Positions 7,179 through 42,265 of a stretch of DNA of 42,265 nucleotides are shown here, one piece after another. Source of the stretch: a virus. The notes under the pieces are model-generated. The model searched no databases. It saw only the letters and a list, made by a program, of their open reading frames with translations, and was not told where the DNA came from. The stretch lies in the IMG/VR virus record IMGVR_UViG_3300037487_000625, positions 1-42,265 of that record. One strand, 5' to 3'. How positions within the stretch are numbered: the stretch's first letter is position 1; each line of letters opens with the position of its first letter. Both the position numbers and the translations under genes were made by a program.

Positions 7179-9379
7179 TTGCTCTCCTTCTTGTCGAGTC
7201 TCTCAACAATTCCTCGCGCCCAACTCCAACCCTCGTCGCCACCCCAGCCATTCCAAGCTTGCCAGCCCTTGCCCTGCTCATCCCAAGTCTGGCCCTTCTT
7301 GTCTGATTGATGGCGTGTGAAGTACTTCACCATACGGCGCACAGTTTCTTCGCTCAGGCTCTTGCGATTTGCAAGATCGCGCGCGCGCGCAAGACCAACG
7401 CTAGTCATTCCCCGCTCTGATTCGGGCTTTGTCTCTCGCACTTCAAGTGCGCGGCGAGCGTTCTTTGCGACACTTTCGGGCGGCGTGAAGCCGTCCTCGA
7501 ACGTCTCCTTCTCACCCTTCTTCTCGTCCTTCGCGAAGTCCTTTGTCTTGAGCGACTCACGCTCAGTCACCATCACTGCTTGCTCTGCGCTCAATCCATC
7601 TTGCACAAGTTCTTCGACGCGATTCAGCGCGGACTTCGTATCGTCCCAATGTTGTGGCAAGCGACGATTCTCAGTCTTTCCGCACATGTCATATGCGATG
7701 GCCCACGCCTGATCATCAGCGTAGCCTTCGTCAATCAGAACGCGATGCTTCGCAATGACGCAGTCGCCGATCTCGCGCGCATTGCGCTTCTTCGTCGGAC
7801 TCTTGCGGTCCTTCGGATAGTCGTGCTTGCCCGAAGCGCAGCCGTTTCCATTCGTGAATCCGCCGAATCCGTTGCCGCAGTTGCCCTTCGGCTTGCCGCG
7901 TCGGCGGCGACGTACTGCCTCGCGACGAAGTTCCTTCTCCGACATCTTTGAGAACGCTTGCTTCGCAGACAGAACCTTCGGCTCGTCTCCGACAAAGTCT
8001 TGTTCGACATCGTTTTTGAACGCATCCTCGTCTGCGATCTCTGGCATGACATCTTTGATCTTGCCAGTAAGAACAGGCTCGTCGATGTCAGGAATCGCAA
8101 GTCCCAACATCTTGCGCGTCTCTGCTTCACTAACTGTGCCACCAAGTTCATTCACGAAGATGCGAATGGCTTCGAGCTTCTTCTCCATCTCTGGACTTTC
8201 GACGGAGAACTCAAACTTCGGATAGTTCTCTTGCGGCCCAAAGTTCATGTCCACGATTTCGCGCACGAGTTGCTGCGTAATCGTTTCGCCAAGACCATCG
8301 GCGACAAACTTCATCTGTCGCGTGAACGTCTTCTGATGCTGACTCGCGACATTTGATCCGATGCCCGATGACACTGCTTCGCTCGTTGCGCTCTGACCAA
8401 CGATGAGTTCCTTGATGTTCTTGGCGAGCCACTCGCAGAGATCAGCAAACACTTGCGCGCGCGCCGCGCCAGGTTCCTTGATCTCAATCTCGTAGTCTTT
8501 CTGCCCAGGCGTTGAGCGAGGAACAACAGCACTCACGTCGCCGACGAGATTGCGGAGGATCTCTTCCATCTCCTCCTTGCCGCCCTTCTGCGCCATCGGG
8601 TAGTAGCCAACGCGAATGCCTTGAGCGTAACGCTCTGCGTAGGTCGCCCAGTTCTGAAGCACGGCCTGCTTCAAGTTCCAATACCACCACACGGTATCGC
8701 GAACGCCCTTGCCCAAGAACGCATACGCAGTCTCATACGGATCATCGAAGTCTGGCCCCTGCACCATATATCGATGCCACACGACAGCGCGGCGTTCAAT
8801 AGGCGTGAGAACGTGGACGCGCGAATCGAATCCTTGTTGCGTCGAGCCGCCCGTTCCGTCCATGTCGGCGTAGTAACGCGGTCCAACGCGAATGGCAGGC
8901 TCGCCGTCAAGGCTCACCGTGATTGTGTCAGGATGAAACGGAAGCCAATCGCTGACGATCACGCCTCCGTCAGGCCGACGCGCATAGATCAAGTTTGCAG
9001 CACTTGACCCATACCACACAGCGTCGAGCAAGTGACGCACCAAATCCGCGAAGCGCGGGATGCGAGAGAAGATCTCTTGCGTTCGTTCTGCAATCTCCTC
9101 TTGCATCGGATCGCGAGAATCGAATGGCTTGATTTGCCATTCAAGACCAGCAATTGACACTTGCAATTGAGTCAACGGCCCCATGCAGTCGGGATCGTTC
9201 CTCATCTGCTTCATCAACTGACGGTCCTTGCGGTACGCCAGCGATGGATTGCGAAGCATCTTCGCGACACTCGCGAAGTACGTCCGTTGCATTTCAATCG
9301 GCATTGCGACAGGGCGCGTCATTGCCGCCGGCAATTTCGCTTTCTCGTCGCCCGAGGGAATATCCAAAAGTTCATCCAT
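7175..9379 (-). CDS. Portal protein (DUF935 type) with extra C-terminal domain
   Basis: A 734-residue protein. Residues about 1-480 match the DUF935 (Mu gp29) portal pattern: MRNDPDCMGPLTQLQVSIAG near 60-80, then AVWYGSSAANLIY, WLPFHPDTI, a VVWHRYMV strand, NLKQAVLQNWATYAERY, and IVGQSATSEAVSSGIGS near 340. The remainder is an appended region: basic and Gly/Asn-rich near 500-530, then a conserved-looking block with RGMTSVGLARARDLANRKSL, VRRMVKYFTRHQSDKKG and WNGWGGDEGWSWARGIVERL. That block occurs in other phage head proteins, sometimes with proteases. The start overlaps the terminase end and has GGAGG upstream. Confidence 0.85.
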   Translation of the reverse strand: MDELLDIPSGDEKAKLPAAMTRPVAMPIEMQRTYFASVAKMLRNPSLAYRKDRQLMKQMRNDPDCMGPLTQLQVSIAGLEWQIKPFDSRDPMQEEIAERTQEIFSRIPRFADLVRHLLDAVWYGSSAANLIYARRPDGGVIVSDWLPFHPDTITVSLDGEPAIRVGPRYYADMDGTGGSTQQGFDSRVHVLTPIERRAVVWHRYMVQGPDFDDPYETAYAFLGKGVRDTVWWYWNLKQAVLQNWATYAERYAQGIRVGYYPMAQKGGKEEMEEILRNLVGDVSAVVPRSTPGQKDYEIEIKEPGAARAQVFADLCEWLAKNIKELIVGQSATSEAVSSGIGSNVASQHQKTFTRQMKFVADGLGETITQQLVREIVDMNFGPQENYPKFEFSVESPEMEKKLEAIRIFVNELGGTVSEAETRKMLGLAIPDIDEPVLTGKIKDVMPEIADEDAFKNDVEQDFVGDEPKVLSAKQAFSKMSEKELRREAVRRRRRGKPKGNCGNGFGGFTNGNGCASGKHDYPKDRKSPTKKRNAREIGDCVIAKHRVLIDEGYADDQAWAIAYDMCGKTENRRLPQHWDDTKSALNRVEELVQDGLSAEQAVMVTERESLKTKDFAKDEKKGEKETFEDGFTPPESVAKNARRALEVRETKPESERGMTSVGLARARDLANRKSLSEETVRRMVKYFTRHQSDKKGQTWDEQGKGWQAWNGWGGDEGWSWARGIVERLDKKESK

Positions 9380-10799
9380 AAAGCCTCCACAACCTATTCT
9401 TGCTTGATTTGGTCAGTTCCGGCTTTGCAGTCAAGCCGTATCCGGCCCTCATGCAAGCCTCCATCAGATCGACAACAGCGTCCACGCAGTCATCGTGATC
9501 CCCAGCGGGGAATGTTGTCATCTCTTCGTACAGAATCGCGTGTTCGCGAGACACCTTCCCCTTCTCACCACGAAGACGAAGCTTGCCTGTTTCGACAAAC
9601 GACTGCTTCTCGCTCGCGCGCGAAAGCTTGTCCTTCGTGCGAACGAGAGGAACCACGCTCGTAGTCTCACAAGCCAAAGACAACTGCTGCACGAGACCGG
9701 CCTGCGGCCCATTGCCTTCAGCCATCAACACGCTGATCCCCGCCGCTCGGCACTCGCGAGCGCAGATCCGTTGCCACTCCGGAAACGGCACTCGCGCACG
9801 GATGACCTTATCGATGTAGCAATAGCCATCCATCGATCGCCAACCCGTCACCAACACCGAGTAGTCAGGATCGCCCTTCTTCACCGTCCGGTCGCTGAAC
9901 GCAAAGTCCGTCGCAGCAATCGCTTGACCCGTCACGCGCACAAAGTCAGGCACTTCGCCCTCATAGAACGCCCGATCAAGCCACCAATGGTCAAAGACGA
10001 GTTGATCGCTCGAAACAGGCGACAGCTCATACGCGCGCGCATACGCAATCGGCCCGTACTGCGCCCTCAAGTCCTGCATCATCGTCGGCGTGTACACCTC
10101 GTGCCACGGACTGTCATAGCCCTTCACAGGCCGGCGAAACATTCCGCCACGGTCCTCGTGATACGTCCGCCATTCAGCCGTGATGTCAGCAACGTGATAC
10201 GGCGTACCAAACTTCCACACACGAGGATTCTCGCCCGACCGATCCAACGTCGGCAACCAAATCGTGGTCCAAGCTTCCTTCACTTGCTCACGCATGGCAG
10301 GCTGCTGCACCGCATTCCGAAGATCGCAAATGTCATCCGCAATCAACAGATCCGATCGACCGCCAGCGCGACCGAACACAGACACCGCTTCCACAGTCGG
10401 GTCACGCATGAACCGACTGCGCTTCACCGTGAACGCCGTGTTCCCCCAAGACGAATCCTTATCCGGCTCAATCGCAGGAAACACACTCCGGTACTCGTCC
10501 GACTGAATCACCTTGCGAATCAACGTGACCGTCTTCGTCGCCTCGTCATCTGACGAACCAACGATCTTCACGCGGATGTGCGGGTTCTTCCCAATCTCCC
10601 AACACACCCGACCAACCATCTGGTTCGTCTTCCCATGCCCACGAGGCATCTCACAGTACGCATTCCCGTGCTGATCAAGATGCCATTGAAGCTCGTCGTG
10701 CAAGCTCGCATTCTCAAAGCCCAACACATACGGCACGAACCAATGCGCAGCCTCCTGACAGCCGTACCAAAACTCCTGCGGTGTCAGATCGCCACTCAT
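9372..10799 (-). CDS. terL: Terminase large subunit
   Basis: A 475-residue DNA packaging motor. The Walker A motif PRGHGKT lies at about residues 52-58, Walker B LLIADD at 151-156, and the coupling motif FGTP near 198-201. The RNase H-like nuclease begins with AATDFAFSD (Asp 298) and ends with GDHDDCVDA (434-440). The start MSGDLTPQEFW at 10799 is chosen because its ATG overlaps the upstream stop as ATGA; a longer frame to 10838 has no such support. It pumps DNA into the prohead through the portal encoded next. Confidence 0.95.
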   Translation of the reverse strand: MSGDLTPQEFWYGCQEAAHWFVPYVLGFENASLHDELQWHLDQHGNAYCEMPRGHGKTNQMVGRVCWEIGKNPHIRVKIVGSSDDEATKTVTLIRKVIQSDEYRSVFPAIEPDKDSSWGNTAFTVKRSRFMRDPTVEAVSVFGRAGGRSDLLIADDICDLRNAVQQPAMREQVKEAWTTIWLPTLDRSGENPRVWKFGTPYHVADITAEWRTYHEDRGGMFRRPVKGYDSPWHEVYTPTMMQDLRAQYGPIAYARAYELSPVSSDQLVFDHWWLDRAFYEGEVPDFVRVTGQAIAATDFAFSDRTVKKGDPDYSVLVTGWRSMDGYCYIDKVIRARVPFPEWQRICARECRAAGISVLMAEGNGPQAGLVQQLSLACETTSVVPLVRTKDKLSRASEKQSFVETGKLRLRGEKGKVSREHAILYEEMTTFPAGDHDDCVDAVVDLMEACMRAGYGLTAKPELTKSSKNRLWRLYG

Positions 10800-11311
10800 C
10801 GCTTTCCTCCAACGCTTCTCGCGACACCTGAATGACACCCTCCAGATCGTCCCACATGACGCACCCCCTCAGCAACATGGTCTGACCATCGATGCGCGAT
10901 CCAATAGACCGAAGTCACCGTGATCTCCAATCGTGCCGCAATTTCCTTGCGCGTCAACCCATGAGCCAACCCCTCAAAGACACTTAACGCAACGTCAGGC
11001 AAACCCAACCCACGCAAGACCTCCAGCAACTCCTCTTGCTCCCGCGCGTCATTCCGATCCCGATAGCCAACAGGACCGCCAAGCTCCTCCAACGACTCAT
11101 GCCGGCCACGTCGAATCAAATCACGACACGCCGTCGCGTACAAAAAACGCAACTTGCGCGGCATCAATGACGGCTCCTTACCCGTGCGCAAAAATGAAAT
11201 CCAAGCCTGCTGCGCCAAGTCCTCCGCGTCCTCAATGCCAACAGACCCATAGCGCATAATCGACTTCGCAGTCGAGCGCGAGCGATCCCATTGTTCCTGC
11301 GTCACGTCCAT
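10796..11311 (-). CDS. ECF-type sigma-like protein in the small-terminase position
   Basis: A 171-residue protein starting MDVTQEQWDRS. Residues about 25-70 read like sigma region 2 (EDAEDLAQQAWISFLR, then LRFLYATACRDLIRR). Residues about 110-150 read like sigma region 4 (LPDVALSVFEGLAHGLTRKE, then IAARLEITVTSVYWIAHRW, a helix-turn-helix). It is the first gene of the late operon and is coupled to terL by ATGA. It may direct RNA polymerase to late promoters. The alternative is a small terminase, which is also HTH-bearing and normally sits here. The ribosome binding site is weak. A longer frame to 11374 would begin inside the promoter region. Confidence 0.65.
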   Translation of the reverse strand: MDVTQEQWDRSRSTAKSIMRYGSVGIEDAEDLAQQAWISFLRTGKEPSLMPRKLRFLYATACRDLIRRGRHESLEELGGPVGYRDRNDAREQEELLEVLRGLGLPDVALSVFEGLAHGLTRKEIAARLEITVTSVYWIAHRWSDHVAEGVRHVGRSGGCHSGVARSVGGKR

Positions 11312-11325
11312 GAACACACCGTACC

Positions 11326-11347
11326 GATCGCAAGAAAACTTGCGATC
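11326..11347. promoter_or_regulatory. Perfect inverted repeat, late-operon operator candidate
   Basis: Nine-base arms GATCGCAAG and CTTGCGATC flank AAAA, with no mismatch. The site ends 15 bases before the sigma-like gene start and lies just downstream of a possible -10 box. The core of the same palindrome (8-base arms) occurs once more at 26618-26637, against the promoter of the exonuclease operon. A dimeric repressor or activator binding both sites is the simplest reading. Confidence 0.7.
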
Positions 11348-11351
11348 CCAC

Positions 11352-11430
11352 AGTCTACAACTTGTGTGCAACATCGCCTATTTGTCAACAACATTTGGAC
11401 AACAGTCGTGCAACAAGTCTACAACGGCGA
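11352..11430 (-). promoter_or_regulatory. Late promoter region with repeated GTTG boxes
   Basis: On the minus strand a consensus -35 box TTGACA lies at 11388-11383. No clear -10 box follows at 17 bases; TAGACT at 11357-11352 is the best hexamer but its spacing is 25. The decamer GTTGTAGACT occurs twice (11361-11352 and 11428-11419) with GTTGCAC next to each copy, and GTTG recurs several times between. This arrangement suggests a phage-specific activator or alternative sigma site rather than a plain sigma70 promoter. Confidence 0.45.
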
Positions 11431-11821
11431 GTTTCGGAGGCCGAAATTTCGCATACACGGGGGGTGTGTTAGAGCGTTCGGGTTTTCGCCTAACCGAAGT
11501 TCCAGAAGGGTAAGTTCGGTAGGAGGGGGGTTTGTACGACCCCTCCCCCCCATGCGTCCGGTGGCCGGCGCGGTCGGGTTCCCGCGTTCCGATCCCGCCA
11601 CGCGTAGCGGTTCGACCGATCGACTACGCGTACGAAACGAAACAACGTGAGCGCATCGGCCCACGTCGTCGCTTCGTTCGTTCCGTTCGATTCTCTCAGT
11701 GTTCGCGAAGTTCCCGCCTTCCCGCGATCTTCCCGCCATCCCTCTTCCCCTCGTCTCTCCGTTCCACGTTGACGTTATGCCGTTCCCTTCTCAAAGTCAA
11801 GCATCAAATACTATGAAAGTG
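11431..11821. other. Non-coding region between late promoter and Gp88 cassette
   Basis: No convincing gene on either strand; the open frames here are low-complexity shadows. It contains a hairpin with arms GGAGGGG and CCCCTCC at 11522-11546, repeats of TTCGG/CCGAA around 11470-11520, and a pyrimidine-rich stretch with several TTCCCGCC-like units near 11705-11760. Confidence 0.5.
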
Positions 11822-11855
11822 CGAACGGCCGATACTCGCGAGTATCGGCCGTTCG
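11822..11855. terminator. 34-bp perfect palindrome, probable terminator of the Gp88 cassette
   Basis: The two 17-base halves are exact reverse complements with no spacer; the left half starts CGAACGGCCGATACTCG. It lies 18 bases after the stop of the Gp88-like gene. On the minus strand it is followed by GCACTTTCATAGTATTTG, moderately T-rich. A Rho-independent terminator is the first choice. A binding site for a dimeric protein or recombinase cannot be excluded, since a loop-less palindrome is not the usual terminator form. Confidence 0.55.
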
Positions 11856-13652: not shown

Positions 13653-13681
13653 ACCGTCCCTAACAAACACCGTCCCTAACA
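13653..13681. repeat. Tandem direct repeat ACCGTCCCTAACA, period 16
   Basis: Two exact 13-base copies at 13653-13665 and 13669-13681 separated by AAC. Just before them TTTGTTCGG is also repeated with period 11. Two in-phase copies in a non-coding region look like an operator or a pair of iterons. Confidence 0.6.
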
Positions 13682-13801: not shown

Positions 13802-13931
13802 TTTCTCCAATCGCCGGCGGCGCGGCGGACGCGCAGGATTCCGCAGCTCGTAGCCACGCTGGAATCAATCCGCGCAGCGAATCGCAAATTTTCTTGCGGT
13901 CGTAAGTCCCGCTCTCGCGCGCATATACGCG

Positions 13932-13946
13932 AATACGGACCGTATT
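13932..13946. promoter_or_regulatory. Palindrome with arms AATACGG / CCGTATT
   Basis: Seven-base arms around a single A. Related sequence AAACGG-A-CCGTATT occurs at 14976-14988, just before the HTH gene start. Single CCGTATTC half-sites occur upstream of starts at 15280, 16553 and 17165. It could be an operator for the regulators encoded nearby. Confidence 0.45.
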
Positions 13947-14042
13947 AGTAGGGAAATATTGTAGTGGCGCGCTCGACTACGCCGATACACGCGCTATCAT
14001 TACACCAACGCGGCGAGTGCCGCAGAAAGAAAGGTAGAAACC

Positions 14043-14687
14043 ATGTTCGCTGAAATCGACCCCTACTACATCGAAGCTGTCGAAACTCTGAACTCGCACT
14101 TTTCATCATCCGCAGACTTTTTCCCTAGCAATCTCGCGATCGTTTCGCGCACGGCTTGGGGTGTCGCTGATAAGCACCGCCGGCATTTAGAGCGCGCGCT
14201 GATGTCTCGCGCTCGCGAGCTCGCGAACGAAGGCCAGTGCCACGCGCAGGATCGCCGATTCCGTTGCGGTCTGCAATTCCACGGCGACGGCACGTTGTGG
14301 GCTACGATTCGCCACAACGGCGAGCACGTCACAGTGCTAGTCGCGATTGAAGCAGAGTCGATCCGCGATGGCATGCATCCGGAGCTCGATATCGCCAAGC
14401 GCACAGCGCAAGCTGAGGCCACGCTGTGGACCGCCGAATTGAACGCGCGCGCTTGCCAACGCGCCGCGCAACACACTTTCAATCGATCACCACTGATCGT
14501 TTCCGATGGTCGCCAGCGCCGCGCCGCCGGCGTTCCTGGAGCGATGCCCTACGCCGGCGAGTACGCGATGTGGCTTCGCCAGCGCAGCGATTATCTGCGC
14601 ATGGCCGAGATCCAGCGGAAGGTCCTTCGCGAGCTTGGCGTTAACCCCGAATTCGAGGCAAACGTGACGGAAGGGGGTGCGGCGTGA
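14043..14687 (+). CDS. Hypothetical protein, first gene of the rightward operon
   Basis: A 214-residue protein, MFAEIDPYYIEAVETLNSHF onward, with a ribosome binding site GAAAGGTAG. It is mostly helical with a central beta-like stretch (GTLWATIRHNGEHVTVLVAI) and a helical C-terminus rich in Arg. No motif recognised. It heads a plus-strand set of five overlapping genes that ends with a serine recombinase, so an early or lysogeny-related role is possible. Confidence 0.65.
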   Translation: MFAEIDPYYIEAVETLNSHFSSSADFFPSNLAIVSRTAWGVADKHRRHLERALMSRARELANEGQCHAQDRRFRCGLQFHGDGTLWATIRHNGEHVTVLVAIEAESIRDGMHPELDIAKRTAQAEATLWTAELNARACQRAAQHTFNRSPLIVSDGRQRRAAGVPGAMPYAGEYAMWLRQRSDYLRMAEIQRKVLRELGVNPEFEANVTEGGAA

Positions 14688-14911
14688 GATTGATAACTGC
14701 CCGATACTTTGGAATCGCTTCGGACGGCACAAAGATTCGACGTGGTCAGGAAATCCTATGGGATCATCGCGCGCGCGTCGTTGTCACGTCATGCCCTAAT
14801 CGCATCGCGGAATGGCGAGACTCGCAAGTTCCAGACGCGCTAGACATCGCGTTTGAGGATTCTTGTGCGCGCGCTTGCGGGTTGGATTCCCTGTCTCCGT
14901 TCCGTGATTGA
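14684..14911 (+). CDS. Small hypothetical protein
   Basis: 75 residues beginning at GTG 14684, which overlaps the previous stop as GTGA (RLITARYFGIASDGTKI onward). It contains three cysteines and no recognised motif. It is followed by 87 bases with a small palindrome GGGCGAC-C-GTCGCCC at 14956-14970 before the next gene. Confidence 0.5.
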   Translation: MRLITARYFGIASDGTKIRRGQEILWDHRARVVVTSCPNRIAEWRDSQVPDALDIAFEDSCARACGLDSLSPFRD

Positions 14912-14998
14912 CCGCCGATCCTCCGCTACCCGCCCGATGCGACCGGACGGGGTGCGGGCGACCGTCGCCCACAGAAACGGACCGTATTGAGAGAGAAC

Positions 14999-15283
14999 AT
15001 GAGCAACAAAAGAGAATCTCGGACCACGCGCACAAATCTTGACCACTACAACAAAGCGGCGCACACCGACATCGACGCACGGCTGAAAAGGCTTGGCCGT
15101 TCGTGGAATTGGCTTGGTCAGATGGCAGAGGCCAACGGCATCGCATGCTTAGCAGCGATCACACATTGGGGAAATGGCCGTGTGAAGCAGGTCGGTTGTG
15201 GTGTATATCGTGCGCTATGCGACATCCTCACCGCCGAAGAACGTCGAATGAAAGAACCCGTCCGTATTCCGGAGGCAAAATGA
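14999..15283 (+). CDS. Small helix-turn-helix-like protein
   Basis: A 94-residue basic protein, MSNKRESRTTRTNLDHYNKA onward. Residues about 28-75 (IDARLKRLGRSWNWLGQMAE, then ITHWGNGRVK and YRALCDILTAEE) follow the pattern of small XRE/Cro-like HTH proteins: a short helix, S-W-x-x-L-A-like helix 2, and a helix ending in W-x-x-G. It may regulate the divergent promoters. GAGAG precedes the ATG at 14999; an upstream TTG at 14987 is less likely. The family call is tentative. Confidence 0.5.
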   Translation: MSNKRESRTTRTNLDHYNKAAHTDIDARLKRLGRSWNWLGQMAEANGIACLAAITHWGNGRVKQVGCGVYRALCDILTAEERRMKEPVRIPEAK

Positions 15284-15597
15284 GCAGTCTGAGTGGCCTG
15301 TCACTGCAAGATTGTTTCATGCTGATTGATCCGCGCGTTCGGTTCAATCTCGTGCATGACATTGTTCACACCGCTGGCGACATCGCTTGCATGCGGAAAA
15401 TTCCAGGGGACATGGGCGGCACGATCTACGCGCTGTACGAGGACGAGCTTGGGTTCGTCTACGTCGGCATCGCGCAGTCCGTTGGCGACGATACCCCGTT
15501 CGAGGATTGGTGCGCCGACCAACGCGCCCACCCGTTCGCGAAAAGTCTTGATCGCGTGGATCTTTTGGGGAACTACCTCAGGGACGGTGGAGCGTGA
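15280..15597 (+). CDS. Small protein with a GIY-YIG-like hairpin
   Basis: 105 residues from ATG 15280, which has GGAGG upstream and overlaps the previous stop as ATGA. GTIYALYEDELGFVYVGIAQ near residues 47-66 resembles the first hairpin of GIY-YIG nucleases (G-x-I-Y-x-L ... Y-V-G-I). The expected downstream Arg and Glu of an active nuclease are not clearly visible, so it may be inactive or only superficially similar. It ends by overlapping the recombinase start as GTGA. Confidence 0.45.
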   Translation: MSSLSGLSLQDCFMLIDPRVRFNLVHDIVHTAGDIACMRKIPGDMGGTIYALYEDELGFVYVGIAQSVGDDTPFEDWCADQRAHPFAKSLDRVDLLGNYLRDGGA

Positions 15598-16325
15598 ACG
15601 CGGTTATTTATCTTCGGGTATCCACAGACGAGCAAGCGCACAGCGGATTGGGCCTCGAAGCCCAGCGCGCTGCCTGCGAATCGAAAGCGCGCGCACTAGG
15701 CGCGACATCTGTCTCCGTATTCGCTGACGAGGGGGTGAGTGGTTCAACCCCCGTCGCGGATCGTCCGCAACTGACCGCCTGTCTCGAAGCCCTCGAACGC
15801 GGCGACGTTCTCGTCGTTGCGAAGCGAGATCGAATCGCTCGCGACTACATGATGGCAGGGTGGGTTGATCTAGAAGTCGCCCGCAAGGGCGCGAGGCTCG
15901 CGTCCGCCGCCGGCGAGGGGACCGACTCCGACGATCCGATGTCGCGCGTCATGCGGGTCATCGTCGATGCATTCGCGCAGTACGAACGCGACATGATCCG
16001 CGCGCGCACAGCGGCTGCGTTAAAGGCCAAACGCGCCCGTGGCGAGAAGACGGGCGGCGTTGTCCCATTCGGATATCGCGTGGCCTGTACGGAGATCTGC
16101 GACGGCAAGGAACGCAAGATCCTCGTCGCGGACGCACACGAGCAAGCGGCTATACGTCGCGCCCAAGAGCTTCGATCGGAGGGATTGGGATTCCGGCTCA
16201 TCGCGCAGCGGCTGGCTTCGGAGGGCATCCGTGGCCGGAATTGCTCTGTCCTCGCGCACACGACGATTCGGCGAGTGCTAGGCCATGATCTTGTGGCCGC
16301 AGCTGGGGCAGCGGATCGTCCGTGA
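15594..16325 (+). CDS. Serine recombinase (resolvase/invertase family)
   Basis: A 243-residue protein starting at GTG 15594. YLRVSTDEQ supplies Arg8 and the catalytic Ser10, and KRDRIARD gives Asp79, Arg80 and Arg83, matching the resolvase active site. FAQYERDMIRARTAAALKAK is the long E helix. PFGYRV and the region RAQELRSEGLGFRLIAQRLA near 190-215 form a DNA-binding part. It is longer than Tn3 resolvases but much shorter than large serine integrases. It may act in integration, dimer resolution or inversion; no attachment site was identified. The 3' end overlaps the convergent gene by about 48 bases. Confidence 0.88.
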   Translation: MNAVIYLRVSTDEQAHSGLGLEAQRAACESKARALGATSVSVFADEGVSGSTPVADRPQLTACLEALERGDVLVVAKRDRIARDYMMAGWVDLEVARKGARLASAAGEGTDSDDPMSRVMRVIVDAFAQYERDMIRARTAAALKAKRARGEKTGGVVPFGYRVACTEICDGKERKILVADAHEQAAIRRAQELRSEGLGFRLIAQRLASEGIRGRNCSVLAHTTIRRVLGHDLVAAAGAADRP

Positions 16326-24774: not shown

Positions 24775-25668
24775 TCAAGCAGTTGTGTCCGTCGTCTCAG
24801 TTGCGGTCTTTCGACTGCGTTGCGCCTTGATCCACGACTGGATGCGCGACAACCATTCTGACGGCCACGATGTCATGTCATCTCCGCCATTCAACCCCGC
24901 CTTCGTCATTGTCGCCTTGAGATCCTCAATCGTCAATCCCTTGGCTGCAAGTGCTTTCGCGACAGATTTCGCTTCGGCTGATGTAATCACGCGCACGGCG
25001 GTAATCACGGCAGGATTGACTTCTGCGGCCTCGGAGCGAATAGCCTCCTCCTCGGCCTGATCGACAGCGGGATCGCCTTGACGGTATTCCTGCTGCGGCG
25101 CGTGAAACGCTGGAGCGTCGGCCTGCGACATTTCCTCGGGGCTGTAGAGGCCGGACAGTTCCGCAGGGAACGCCTTGCGCAGCGCGAGCATCTCTGCGCA
25201 CTTCGCGAGCATGAGAGCAGGCATCTTGGGCCATTGACCTGTAGGCGCGCCCTCTTTGTTCCGTTGGCAATACTCGCCCCACAGCGCAACAGCATAAAGC
25301 GGTTGGACGAAGCCCCTCCGCGCGACTCCCACGCGAGCAGCCACGGGAGGGGTCTTCGCCAACCACACGTCCTTCCACACGCCGTCGTCGCCGCACCAGT
25401 ATGGGCCGTCCTGCCCCGCGTACTCGCCGCTTCGCTGCGCCACGAGCCGCGCGCCGTCAATGCTGACTTGGGTCTGCATGACTTCGCGACGTTCGCGAGA
25501 GTCCCACCTCTTGATGGCGAATATCTGACGGGCGAACGGATCAAGTCCTGTGCGGTTACAGATGGCGACAAACAGTTCAAGTTCGTCGTTGGAAGCACCC
25601 TTGGCGATTGTACGCGCGATCAGGCCCACCTTATCGCTGTCAAGTTGTCGAATGGCAAGTTGCGTCAT
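24775..25668 (-). CDS. bet: Single-strand annealing protein, RecT/Bet family
   Basis: 297 residues from the ATG at 25668, which overlaps the exonuclease stop as TAATG ([20 protein letters not shown]). The Bet pattern is clear: [14 protein letters not shown] near 41-54, [36 protein letters not shown], then [20 protein letters not shown] and [11 protein letters not shown]. The C-terminal third is an acidic linker and a small helical domain. It anneals complementary strands after the neighbouring exonuclease resects DNA, as in lambda Red. Confidence 0.93.
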
Positions 25669-26489
25669 TAGAGCGTCTCCTCTTCTTTGGCGACCTTCCA
25701 ACGCGGAAGCGAAATTGTCTCAATCAACTCCGTGTACGCCGGCCAGTTGTCGCGCGCGATGCAATCGATGAGTACGGGAATCGCACGAGCAATTTGCGTA
25801 GCTCCCTCAGTGATCGCGTCGTGGTCAAGTTGGTAGCAGGCGACTGCAAATGGCATCTCCTTCTCAACGGCAATGAACACCATGCCCTCGACATCGAACC
25901 CAGCGCGCTTCATCGCCGCCATGTACCAAGCAGCTTGTATGTGATATGAGAAGTTGGCAACCGATTTTGTGAAACCCGCGCGACTTGCGTCGGTAGTGGA
26001 CTTCAAATCAACGATGCAGCGTTGTTCGATGTTGTAGCCGTCAATGCGCGCCTTGCAGGGGATCGTTCCATTCGGCCAATCCGCCTTCCAAAAGACGCTC
26101 AACTCGCGCTCAGTCAAGCCGCCGATGAGGTCGCGAGCAGTCGTGTGCTCCTCGACCGCCTGAGCCATCGAAGTCGCAGCACCGTAGTCCGCAGCGGTCA
26201 GAACCGTCTTACCGCCGCTCGACTCAACAAATTCCGCCCACGCCGCCTTACCCGCAGTCGTTCGACGGTCAACGTCAGGAGCGACCACGAAATCCTCGTG
26301 GAAACGCTTTGGCTCCAACACGCATGCATGGAATGCCTCGCCGAGCGCGAACGCTGACGATTGCTTCGGGAAACGATCCATCACCCGCAAGTGTGCTGGA
26401 CTGCGCATGAACTCCTTCAACCGCGATGCCGATGCGGCAACAACGGCGTGATAAGCATGCGACGGCATATCTCGCTTGACTTCTACCAT
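25668..26489 (-). CDS. RecE-like exonuclease (PD-(D/E)XK, DUF3799)
   Basis: 273 residues from the ATG at 26489, with AAAGGAAA upstream; the longer frame to 26540 runs through a leader hairpin. Features: [14 protein letters not shown] near 47-60, [16 protein letters not shown] (Asp150), [10 protein letters not shown] (Asp161, Lys163), then [18 protein letters not shown]. This is the RecE C-terminal/YqaJ-like nuclease pattern. It degrades one strand of double-stranded DNA ends and feeds Bet. Confidence 0.9.
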
Positions 26490-26589: not shown

Positions 26590-26618
26590 ACTCTATCGGC
26601 AAGTTAGAGGGTTGTCAA
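26590..26618 (-). promoter_or_regulatory. Sigma70-type promoter of the Exo/Bet operon
   Basis: TTGACA at 26618-26613 and TAGAGT at 26595-26590, spacer 17. Transcription should begin near 26583, giving a leader of about 90 bases that contains the hairpin at 26510-26559. The -35 box touches the palindrome at 26618-26637. Confidence 0.78.
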
Positions 26619-26637
26619 TCGCAAGTTTTCTTGCGAT
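26618..26637. promoter_or_regulatory. Palindromic operator adjoining the Exo/Bet promoter
   Basis: Eight-base arms ATCGCAAG and CTTGCGAT around TTTT (AAAA on the other strand), perfect. It abuts the -35 TTGACA. The same element stands at 11326-11347 ahead of the late operon. It may bind a common repressor or activator. Confidence 0.72.
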
Positions 26638-27068
26638 CAGCCAATCATCGTCTGCGCAAACCACGCTTTGATCCGATCGGTCAACTTGCGATGTCGGCCC
26701 TTGGCTGCCCCCCACTTGCCAAGCGGACACTTCTGCTCGGGCATCGTCAGCTTGACCGTGAGCCGCGCGCGCTGCGAAACACCACACCCACACGACGAAC
26801 AGAAGCCGATTTCATCAGGGATTTTATCCGTGACCATGCGCCTCGGACACGCAATGCAAGCGGCCTTGCGCTCTTCAAATACCTCGTCAGTTACGGGGCC
26901 ATACAACTGCAACGACGCTTCTGCCGTCAAGTACTTCTTGACATTCGCAACGGAAACGTCGCGCTCAGGAATGGGCGCGTTGTTCGTCTCCGCAGGCTTG
27001 ATGACTTTGGAGGTCGGCATCTGATCCGTGTTGTAACTCTTGCCGCGTCGGAAATAGAGAGGGTTCAT
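26637..27068 (-). CDS. Cys-cluster (zinc or iron-sulfur) small protein
   Basis: 143 residues from the ATG at 27068, which overlaps the previous stop as ATGA (MNPLYFRRGKSYNTDQMPTS). The C-terminal part has CIACPRRM, CSSCGCGVSQRAR and MPEQKCPLGKWG: six cysteines in the C-x2-C ... C-x2-C-x-C ... C-P-x-G-K-W pattern found in small phage proteins. The role is unknown. It is the last gene of the late run, and its stop coincides with the edge of the operator palindrome. Confidence 0.65.
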   Translation of the reverse strand: MNPLYFRRGKSYNTDQMPTSKVIKPAETNNAPIPERDVSVANVKKYLTAEASLQLYGPVTDEVFEERKAACIACPRRMVTDKIPDEIGFCSSCGCGVSQRARLTVKLTMPEQKCPLGKWGAAKGRHRKLTDRIKAWFAQTMIG

Positions 27069-40489: not shown

Positions 40490-41955
40490 TACGGCCTCGC
40501 ATTCCACCAAGCCTCGCCAGCTTGGCGGCCTGGATAAGCAATATTCATTGAGAATCGACCGCCCGTCATTCCGACAAGATCGCCGATGAAAAGAGACTTA
40601 ATCGTGTTGCCTTGAGCGGCCATTCGCGCGGCGGAATACGCCTTATACGCAGCACCGCCGGTAAAGATGTTGAATATATCTGCTCCAATTCCCATCTTCC
40701 CAAAGTCTCCTGAAAGCAGCCCTTCGTAGATCAGTCCAAGGCCACCCAAAAACTCATCCGCTGACTGCCCCATGCTCGAAACAAATTGTCGATAGTGAGA
40801 TCTCACTACCCGCGTATTTTGAAGCATGGTCATTTCTGCTTGTGTTACTCCAGCAATTGCAGATCGCATGCTTGGATCGCGAGCCATAATGATCTGATCT
40901 TGCAAATTGGCAATCATCGATTGTGCGCCATATTGGGCAATCACTGGATCAACTCTTGCAAGCTCTGCACGTTGCTGTTTGGCAAGATCAGGGAAATATC
41001 TGATCATGCTGACAACGGTCTTAATTGCCGACCCAATCATGCTCAAAGTCGCAAGAACACGACCAATAGACGTGAAGATGCTGGTGGTCTTCCCTTGCGC
41101 TTTAGGTTCTGCCGGACTCACCTGCGCTTCAACTGAAGACACAACACCGCGCACTCCGCTTGCGTAGGCTCGCGTCCCAGGAAGGCCCGATGGAGATGCT
41201 TCGCCCGTCACGAGCGCGCGCTCTTCATCCGTCAAGCCAAGCGATGCAACTGACGCTCCATCAACCGAAGCACGGCGACGAAGTTCAGACAACCGAGATG
41301 CCTGATACCCAGACATCCTGTTTGTAGCAGCGCGCAAATCGGCCTTGTTCTGGCGTGCCGCTTCCTGCGCCGCTGATCGGGCCTGACGCGCGGCTTCACG
41401 CTGTGCTTCCTTCTGCGCTCGAATCTGCTCTTTGGCCTTAAGTGCCTCCGAGCGATACATCGCACGCGCAGTCTCCGCAGTCATGCGGCCCTGCTGCTCT
41501 TCTCCATAAATTTCAAGCCGACGAAGGCCAAGAGCCTGCCGAAGTTCTGCGGGTTTGAGACTAGCTCGCTCGGTGTGGTAACGACTCAACAATGCGCGAT
41601 GGCTTTCGGAAGCAATATCCGAGATCTGCAAGCCCATCGTTCGAGACATCCGATTGCGGTACTCAAGTACATCAGAGGCAAACATGCCCCCATTGCCGCC
41701 CTTACCTCCTGCAGCACCTCCACCTGCACCGCCTCCACCACCACCGCTACCGCCGCCGCTACGACCTGCTCCGCGAGCAATAACTCGAAGCGTCTCAAGG
41801 ATCGCCCGAACATTCTGCGAGATCGTTGCAACGCTGTTCTGCACGTTGCGCAACGTCTCAATCACGACCTTCATGTCACCATCAGGGCCGCGACCGCTGC
41901 CGTCATCTCCGGTGTGGAGATTGATATCAATTGAGCCAGAGGAAATGTCACTCAT
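40489..41955 (-). CDS. Tape-measure-like protein (complete copy)
   Basis: 488 residues. N-terminal helix (MKVVIETLRNVQNSVATISQ), a glycine linker (GGGSGGGGGGAGGG) near 70-90, a long charged helical region near 150-215 (EQIRAQKEAQREAARQARSA), a hydrophobic segment near 300 (IGRVLATLSMIGSAIKTVVS) and an amphipathic C-terminal half. A coiled-coil protein with a membrane-active stretch between the tail chaperone and the distal tail genes fits a tape measure. It is short; at the common ~0.15 nm per residue this would mean a tail of roughly 70-75 nm. The assignment is by position and architecture. Confidence 0.65.
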   Translation of the reverse strand: MSDISSGSIDINLHTGDDGSGRGPDGDMKVVIETLRNVQNSVATISQNVRAILETLRVIARGAGRSGGGSGGGGGGAGGGAAGGKGGNGGMFASDVLEYRNRMSRTMGLQISDIASESHRALLSRYHTERASLKPAELRQALGLRRLEIYGEEQQGRMTAETARAMYRSEALKAKEQIRAQKEAQREAARQARSAAQEAARQNKADLRAATNRMSGYQASRLSELRRRASVDGASVASLGLTDEERALVTGEASPSGLPGTRAYASGVRGVVSSVEAQVSPAEPKAQGKTTSIFTSIGRVLATLSMIGSAIKTVVSMIRYFPDLAKQQRAELARVDPVIAQYGAQSMIANLQDQIIMARDPSMRSAIAGVTQAEMTMLQNTRVVRSHYRQFVSSMGQSADEFLGGLGLIYEGLLSGDFGKMGIGADIFNIFTGGAAYKAYSAARMAAQGNTIKSLFIGDLVGMTGGRFSMNIAYPGRQAGEAWWNARP

Positions 41956-42265
41956 TAGCCAGCCTCAATCTGATACGTAAGGTTCGTGGCGACCGTTGGA
42001 TACGCGCGACGATAGAGCCGATACGTCACTCCATCTTCTGTAATTGACCCAATCGCTGGAGATCCCGCAGGAGCAGGGTATCCGAGCCTATAGAAAGGCT
42101 CAATACCAGCCTGCGTTCTAATCGTAATTCCGAGCGTGTGCAACTCTTGAGGAAACGCGAACCAAAAGTATTCCGACGCAGAAGACCCGCGACTCGCAGT
42201 CACGGTGTACTTGACATTGTTGAGATACTCGTTCTCGTTGTTGAGTGCTGTCCACGTCGGTGTGG
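41443..42265. repeat. Right copy of terminal near-repeat
   Basis: Counterpart of 1-820. It is three bases longer because of one extra codon in the tape-measure glycine linker. After about 41810 it is nearly identical to the left copy except for scattered single differences, many of them at third codon positions. Confidence 0.9.
41955..42265 (-). CDS. Unrecognised tail-region protein, C-terminal part (runs off window)
   Basis: The frame is open from the window edge to the stop at 41955 and gives about 103 residues ending TNLTYQIEAG. The protein is essentially identical to the C-terminus of the gene at 510-1313, with only a few silent base changes. The stop overlaps the tape-measure start as TAATG, exactly as in the left copy. 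Confidence 0.8.
   Translation of the reverse strand, partial: TPTWTALNNENEYLNNVKYTVTASRGSSASEYFWFAFPQELHTLGITIRTQAGIEPFYRLGYPAPAGSPAIGSITEDGVTYRLYRRAYPTVATNLTYQIEAG

Follow-up and report, generated by a model that had tools for sequence, protein, structure and literature searches.

The window analyzed here is the whole of the IMG/VR phage record IMGVR_UViG_3300037487_000625, a stretch of 42,265 nucleotides. Its ends (1-820 and 41443-42265) overlap by 820 bases with 92% identity, which implies a near-complete genome, probably with circular permutation. Either the presence of two strains or the way a circularly permuted genome was assembled may explain the imperfect overlap.

Gene direction suggests that the genome is organized in approximately four transcription units (Table 1). 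Three of these are headed by copies of one palindrome, called here motif A. The fourth, a short leftward block, is headed by tandem GTTAGGGACGG repeats (13654-13680), which possibly are iterons; similar repeats stand at the equivalent place in relatives. A different palindrome, perfect over 34 bases (CGAACGGCCGATACTCGCGAGTATCGGCCGTTCG, 11822-11855), lies between a gp88-like gene and the late leader, and is probably terminator-like or some other hairpin.

Table 1. Features of the 42,265-nt genome that bear on motif A.
Feature	Position	Strand or direction	Remarks
Late block	11311 via terminase, portal, capsid round to 26637	leftward	assigned from gene direction
Exonuclease/RecT block	from exonuclease and RecT to 16278	leftward	assigned from gene direction
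Rightward block (operon)	14043-16325	+	214-aa and 75-aa unknowns, r98, 105-aa protein, serine recombinase at the end; only clearly rightward operon
Short block	13529-11874	leftward	assigned from gene direction
Terminase large subunit (TerL)	9372-10838	-	phrog_38, E 3.5e-57
First late ORF, 171 aa	10796-11311	-	ECF-sigma-like; TIGR02937
Motif A, late copy	11326-11347	-	GATCGCAAG-TTTT-CTTGCGATC in late-operon direction; 14 bases 5' of first late ATG (11311)
Motif A, exonuclease copy	26617-26638	-	one difference in 18 from late copy
Motif A, third and weaker copy	13880-13901	+	AATCGCAAATTTTCTTGCGGTC; 3/18 mismatches
Promoter-like site, rightward operon	13973-14000	+	TCGACT-16-TATCAT
r98, candidate regulator, 94 aa	14999-15283	+	lambda-repressor-like (XRE/POU-specific) predicted fold
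Serine recombinase	15594-16325	+	last gene of rightward operon
hth16, candidate regulator, 91 aa	16278-16553	-	MarR-like winged helix, C-terminal CxxC
RecT-family annealing protein	24775-25701	-	family match
Exonuclease VIII-like protein (DUF3799, PD-(D/E)XK)	25668-26486	-	family match
Sigma-70-type promoter, exonuclease/RecT operon	26590-26618	-	TTGACA-17-TAGAGT

Three copies of one palindrome

Read on the plus strand, the late copy is GATCGCAAG-AAAA-CTTGCGATC, a perfect palindrome of 22 bases with 9-base arms, exactly as an initial annotation had described it. That annotation also reported a recurrence, with 8-base arms and the centre of the opposite strand, touching the -35 box of the exonuclease promoter. 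This core (26618-26637, with a TTTT centre) is indeed there, and palindrome and box have one base in common. The annotation saw no third copy; here it was mistaken. A weaker one lies upstream of the rightward operon, about 140 bases 5' of its ATG, with the promoter some 70 bases further downstream (the copy is at about -116 relative to that promoter).

A single perfect palindrome with 9-base arms is, of course, unremarkable; simulated genomes of matching composition hold 0-11 of them. The case for motif A depends, therefore, on its recurrence and its conservation. With up to 3 mismatches allowed, a scan of the whole genome finds motif A three times and nowhere else, where 0.06 matches are expected by chance. 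None of 100 shuffled sequences reached three matches to the 22-mer at the same tolerance. The scatter of copies through coding regions that might be expected of a chance motif is absent, and all three copies lie in promoter regions. In the relatives as well, motif A is almost entirely restricted to regulatory regions.

Arms of 9 bases around a 4-base loop would also fold as RNA, and the first late gene may have the late copy in its 5' leader. It is nevertheless most improbable that motif A works as an RNA hairpin, whether as a terminator or in a leader structure. No copy is followed by a run of T, and a terminator scan finds none. Further, the exonuclease copy precedes the -35 box, and the rightward copy lies some 70 bases before its promoter, which places both outside the leaders of their operons.

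The late leader contains more than the palindrome. At 11400-11560, and in the terL leaders of relatives, there is a conserved GACCCCC-(G/T)TATGTG element together with repeated GTTAGACG blocks. The GTTAGACG repeats adjoin both late and exonuclease promoters, and GTCTAAC sits between the -35 and -10 boxes in several of the latter. These elements could be a cos site, a late promoter or a second operator.

Their presence beside the palindrome (GACCCCC-TATGTG and the GTTAGACG blocks) gives some weight to the idea that the late copy is a packaging (cos/pac) site bound by terminase, with the other copies being secondary. But the near-perfect copies at the exonuclease and rightward operons are far off and are conserved there, and one relative (G027) has the palindrome and the GACCCCC element in reversed order. 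A packaging site is thus very unlikely.

The first late ORF resembles an ECF sigma factor. TIGR02937 matches it in 4/4 members, with a best value of 1e-5 that is under the curated cut-off, and its sequence matches in the PDB include no sigma structure. The ORF is confined to the subclade of this genome.

Conservation in related phages

A search with TerL, at 77-96% identity, delivered 22 viral loci and two MAG loci. Two MAGs, one actinobacterial and the other alphaproteobacterial, contain relatives as phage contigs. In the isolated phages searched, every terminase match falls below 60% identity. The count of conserved sites covers 25 contigs and 441 kb, this genome included. Some records (G numbers below) are not independent, with G002/G004 and G005/G020 being near copies in these regions.

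The motif A consensus is ATCGCAA-N6-TTGCGAT, where the inner pair is usually G/C and the centre is A/T-rich. Its core, CGCAA-N6-TTGCG, occurs 25 times in the 441 kb, counted without a PWM, and 24 of these occurrences are at the same three promoter positions. Nineteen are in the late leader, three are at the exonuclease promoter (this genome, G004 and G020) and two are at the rightward operon (this genome and G019); the 25th is elsewhere, at 15286 in G020. Conservation in related phages, which the initial annotation had held up as a check on its proposal, is therefore found. Other gap lengths from 0 to 15 yield only 0-4 matches, and control half-sites give at most 10, mostly inside one conserved stretch. 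The dyad symmetry is thus above chance at more than one promoter.

A further 18 records have the late copy at this position. Conservation of the late leader is centred on the palindrome (1.3-2.0 bits in most arm columns), while the surrounding sequence drifts. In G016 both arms are altered together (ACGCAAG...CTTGCGT), which means that the dyad has been kept. Sites score 22-35 with a PWM that was itself trained on most of them, against a best score of 18.5 in 30 simulated genomes. With the PWM, G004/G002 gain a rightward site, and G007 and G023 gain late sites that are weaker; no strong site lies elsewhere. The late leader of G005/G020 holds two motif A sites. G018 is without motif A, and has a different palindrome, GCGAGACC-GT-GGTCTCGC, in its terL leader (L063:18343-18360), as if operator specificity had been exchanged.

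The other two sites have a patchier history. The rightward site is kept in G004/G002 and G019, and is absent or degenerate in G009, G010, G012, G013, G020 and G023. G004 and G020 keep the exonuclease site; in G026/G027 it is degenerate, and in G013, G023 and G025 (L087) it is degenerate or absent. These losses leave only the late site near-universal.

For a less circular test, loci were fetched not by the motif but through alignments of exonucleases and of RecT proteins, five of each. Here, L089 and L090, whose exonuclease is 49% identical, carry GCGCAAATTTTCTTTCGA immediately 5' of TTGCAT-17-TACGCT. In the whole record of L090 (G027, 42.8 kb, TerL 78%), the late leader contains TCGCAAATTTTCTTTCGA, and a third near-match precedes the gene that follows the helicase. 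Searches of viral contigs with the single exonuclease, or with the sigma-like ORF, gave no relatives. Scanning viral contigs for the exact motif yielded just three records, all known already; it performs poorly because the centre and the outer bases of the motif vary. The exonuclease sites that were found via the exonuclease, together with the losses elsewhere, suggest that joint control of late and exonuclease genes is probably old in this phage group and was lost in some lines.

The small serine recombinase is conserved in the same relatives, and dyads are typical of the sites used by such enzymes. Motif A could, on this basis, be a recombination site. However, the number of copies varies from 1 to 3, the central bases differ among copies and among phages, and one copy touches a promoter; a recombination site is highly improbable.

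The initial annotation proposed one regulator for the late and the Exo/RecT genes, and relatives that keep the site at both promoters bear this out, although the exonuclease site is not universal. Both of those operons do carry the site, but a scheme of two operons is too narrow, as a third carries motif A as well. As a prediction from sequence, shared control of late and Exo/RecT genes by one DNA-binding regulator is well supported. Many related phages retain motif A at these positions, which makes it very probable that one master regulator binds there.

Candidate binders

The initial annotation named four HTH proteins as possible binders. Two of these, r98 and hth16, remain as candidates; wherever the contig of a relative extends over that region, G027 included, both are encoded. 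Most motif-bearing relatives lack the other two (21761 and 31371), which were set aside as binders. Among relatives, the former occurs only in G004 and the latter only in G004 and G022; both are missing from motif-bearing G009, G013, G020 and G023.

In its predicted structure r98 appears lambda-repressor-like, at modest scores, and the protein would share at most a fold class with such repressors. The model has a pLDDT of 86.7. Foldseek returns E values above 0.5, with Aca2 as the best row at weak scores, and the VIA Z scores of 5-8.5 to XRE and POU-specific domains are in the range about which the tool warns. No HTH family in Pfam, PHROG or NCBIfam matches r98, so that by sequence it does not qualify as an XRE/HTH_3 protein. 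Its gene shares an operon with that of the recombinase, an arrangement that would be expected of a lysogeny repressor.

For hth16, sequence and fold both point to a MarR winged helix. PF12802 matches with 28.9 bits, against a cut-off of 27, and the best Foldseek rows are of the MarR family (E ~2e-3). The recognition-helix stretch RNR(A/S)TIH is invariant in 8/8 aligned sequences.

Wider searches with r98 and hth16 gave the same records only, and co-occurrence therefore does not separate the candidates from the motif. A comparison of recognition helices with changes in the motif did not discriminate between r98 and hth16. Either is a tentative assignment, r98 to the same degree as hth16; that the binder is any other protein, of phage or host, is somewhat doubtful.

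The rightward operon also has a second dyad, motif B (AATACGG-N-CCGTATT), at 13932-13946 and 14974-14988. It occurs twice in the operon in this genome and in all eight relatives that cover that part. The first copy is upstream of the rightward promoter, where relatives have TTGACT/TTGACC for the -35 box and TAGTAT/TATGAT for the -10 box. The second comes after a GGGCGAC-CGTCGCCC hairpin; in most relatives it reaches the Shine-Dalgarno sequence of the gene downstream. Motif B may be a control site in both DNA and RNA, and r98 may bind motif B rather than motif A.

The binder might, of course, be a host regulator that the phages exploit, an idea that can be combined with either repression or activation. 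The sequence ties no phage gene to the motif, and a single motif specificity extends across phages whose terminases are 77-96% identical. However, the phage itself has two conserved HTH candidates, and the only match to the motif in the actinobacterial MAG is in the phage contig itself (a contig whose assignment to that host is uncertain). A host regulator is unlikely.

Mode of control and its meaning

The exonuclease promoter is a strong one. It has 10/12 consensus matches, with 0.1 such promoters expected; its -35 box is full consensus and its -10 box is imperfect. The arrangement of the promoter is alike in G004, G020, G013 and G023, and motif A stands at it in this genome, G004 and G020. 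If transcription starts 7 bases past the -10 box, the palindrome is centred at about -44.5. For the late operon, a promoter scan of the block found no clear promoter-like sequence in this genome, including downstream of the palindrome, and the geometry of the late site is accordingly uncertain.

A centre some 44.5 bases before the expected start is a position that activators use. Motif A might then be the site where an early phage protein, on the model of P2 Ogr or phi29 p4, binds ahead of the -35 box and brings RNA polymerase to the exonuclease and late promoters. The imperfect -10 box fits this idea, as does the site in G020, which is about 9 bases further upstream than in this genome, close to one helical turn. 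But a full-consensus -35 box usually needs no activator, and the late copy stands 14 bases before a start codon with no promoter-like sequence downstream. Activation is rather unlikely.

Repression is preferred for three reasons. Operons and phages differ in where the site lies with respect to the promoter, the exonuclease -35 box is already consensus, and the late copy stands between an upstream leader and the first gene. Motif A is likely to be the operator of one homodimeric HTH regulator, with repression of lytic operons as its most likely mode. The sites, their spacing, promoter positions and conservation are seen in the sequences; from these we infer dimer binding, a common binder, repression over activation and a phage-encoded binder. 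One operator would head each of the late, exonuclease/RecT and rightward recombinase operons, and lytic operons would be repressed while the phage is in its lysogenic or early phase. In the late operon, the seat of the dimer would be between the upstream leader and the first gene; at the exonuclease operon it would be seated against the -35 box.

Known systems offer partial parallels to such a site. Salmonella phage P22 and phage 434 have repressors of the lambda-repressor-like (XRE) kind. In P22 the operator dyad spans 18 bases around an AAG-N4-CTT core, and motif A has the matching 18-base, N4-centred layout of a P22 c2 site. P22 clusters its operators at OR and OL, whereas here there is one site per operon (two in the late leader of G005/G020). 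No homologue of P22 c2 was found by sequence. The P22 and 434 operators have A/T-rich centres that are read indirectly (PMC3317979, PMC3711457).

In Bacillus phage phi29, one phage protein, p4, acts at inverted repeats at early and late promoters (PMC3100819). The likeness is in having one regulator with inverted-repeat sites at promoters of different classes. The p4 sites, however, read CTTTTT-15-AAAATG and lie between adjacent promoters, whereas motif A differs in sequence and its sites are kilobases apart.

In P2, the small phage protein Ogr acts on a dyad (TGT-N12-ACA, near -55) upstream of several late promoters, and these sites are not known to control recombination genes. Motif A, in contrast, heads recombination genes as well. 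Family scans of this genome found no Ogr-like protein. Cluster A mycobacteriophages are reported to use one repressor at several genome sites (PMC9283540, PMC6550527). Their stoperators are asymmetric and numerous, whereas motif A provides three symmetric sites, at promoters only.

Motif A is thus, from comparative sequence evidence, very probably a conserved master operator, ordinary in its kind of control, in an undescribed phage group. A more ambitious reading, rather speculative, is a minimal genome-wide switch, where one regulator would gate recombination, morphogenesis and its own recombinase/regulator operon, plus an ECF-type late sigma factor in one subclade. If that is true, the operator would, in the subclade of this genome, gate a dedicated late sigma factor encoded by the phage.

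An operator first noticed by eye in a single metagenomic genome can be tested against unlabelled relatives. With this, an uncharacterised phage family gains a testable regulatory map, with three sites and two candidate regulators.
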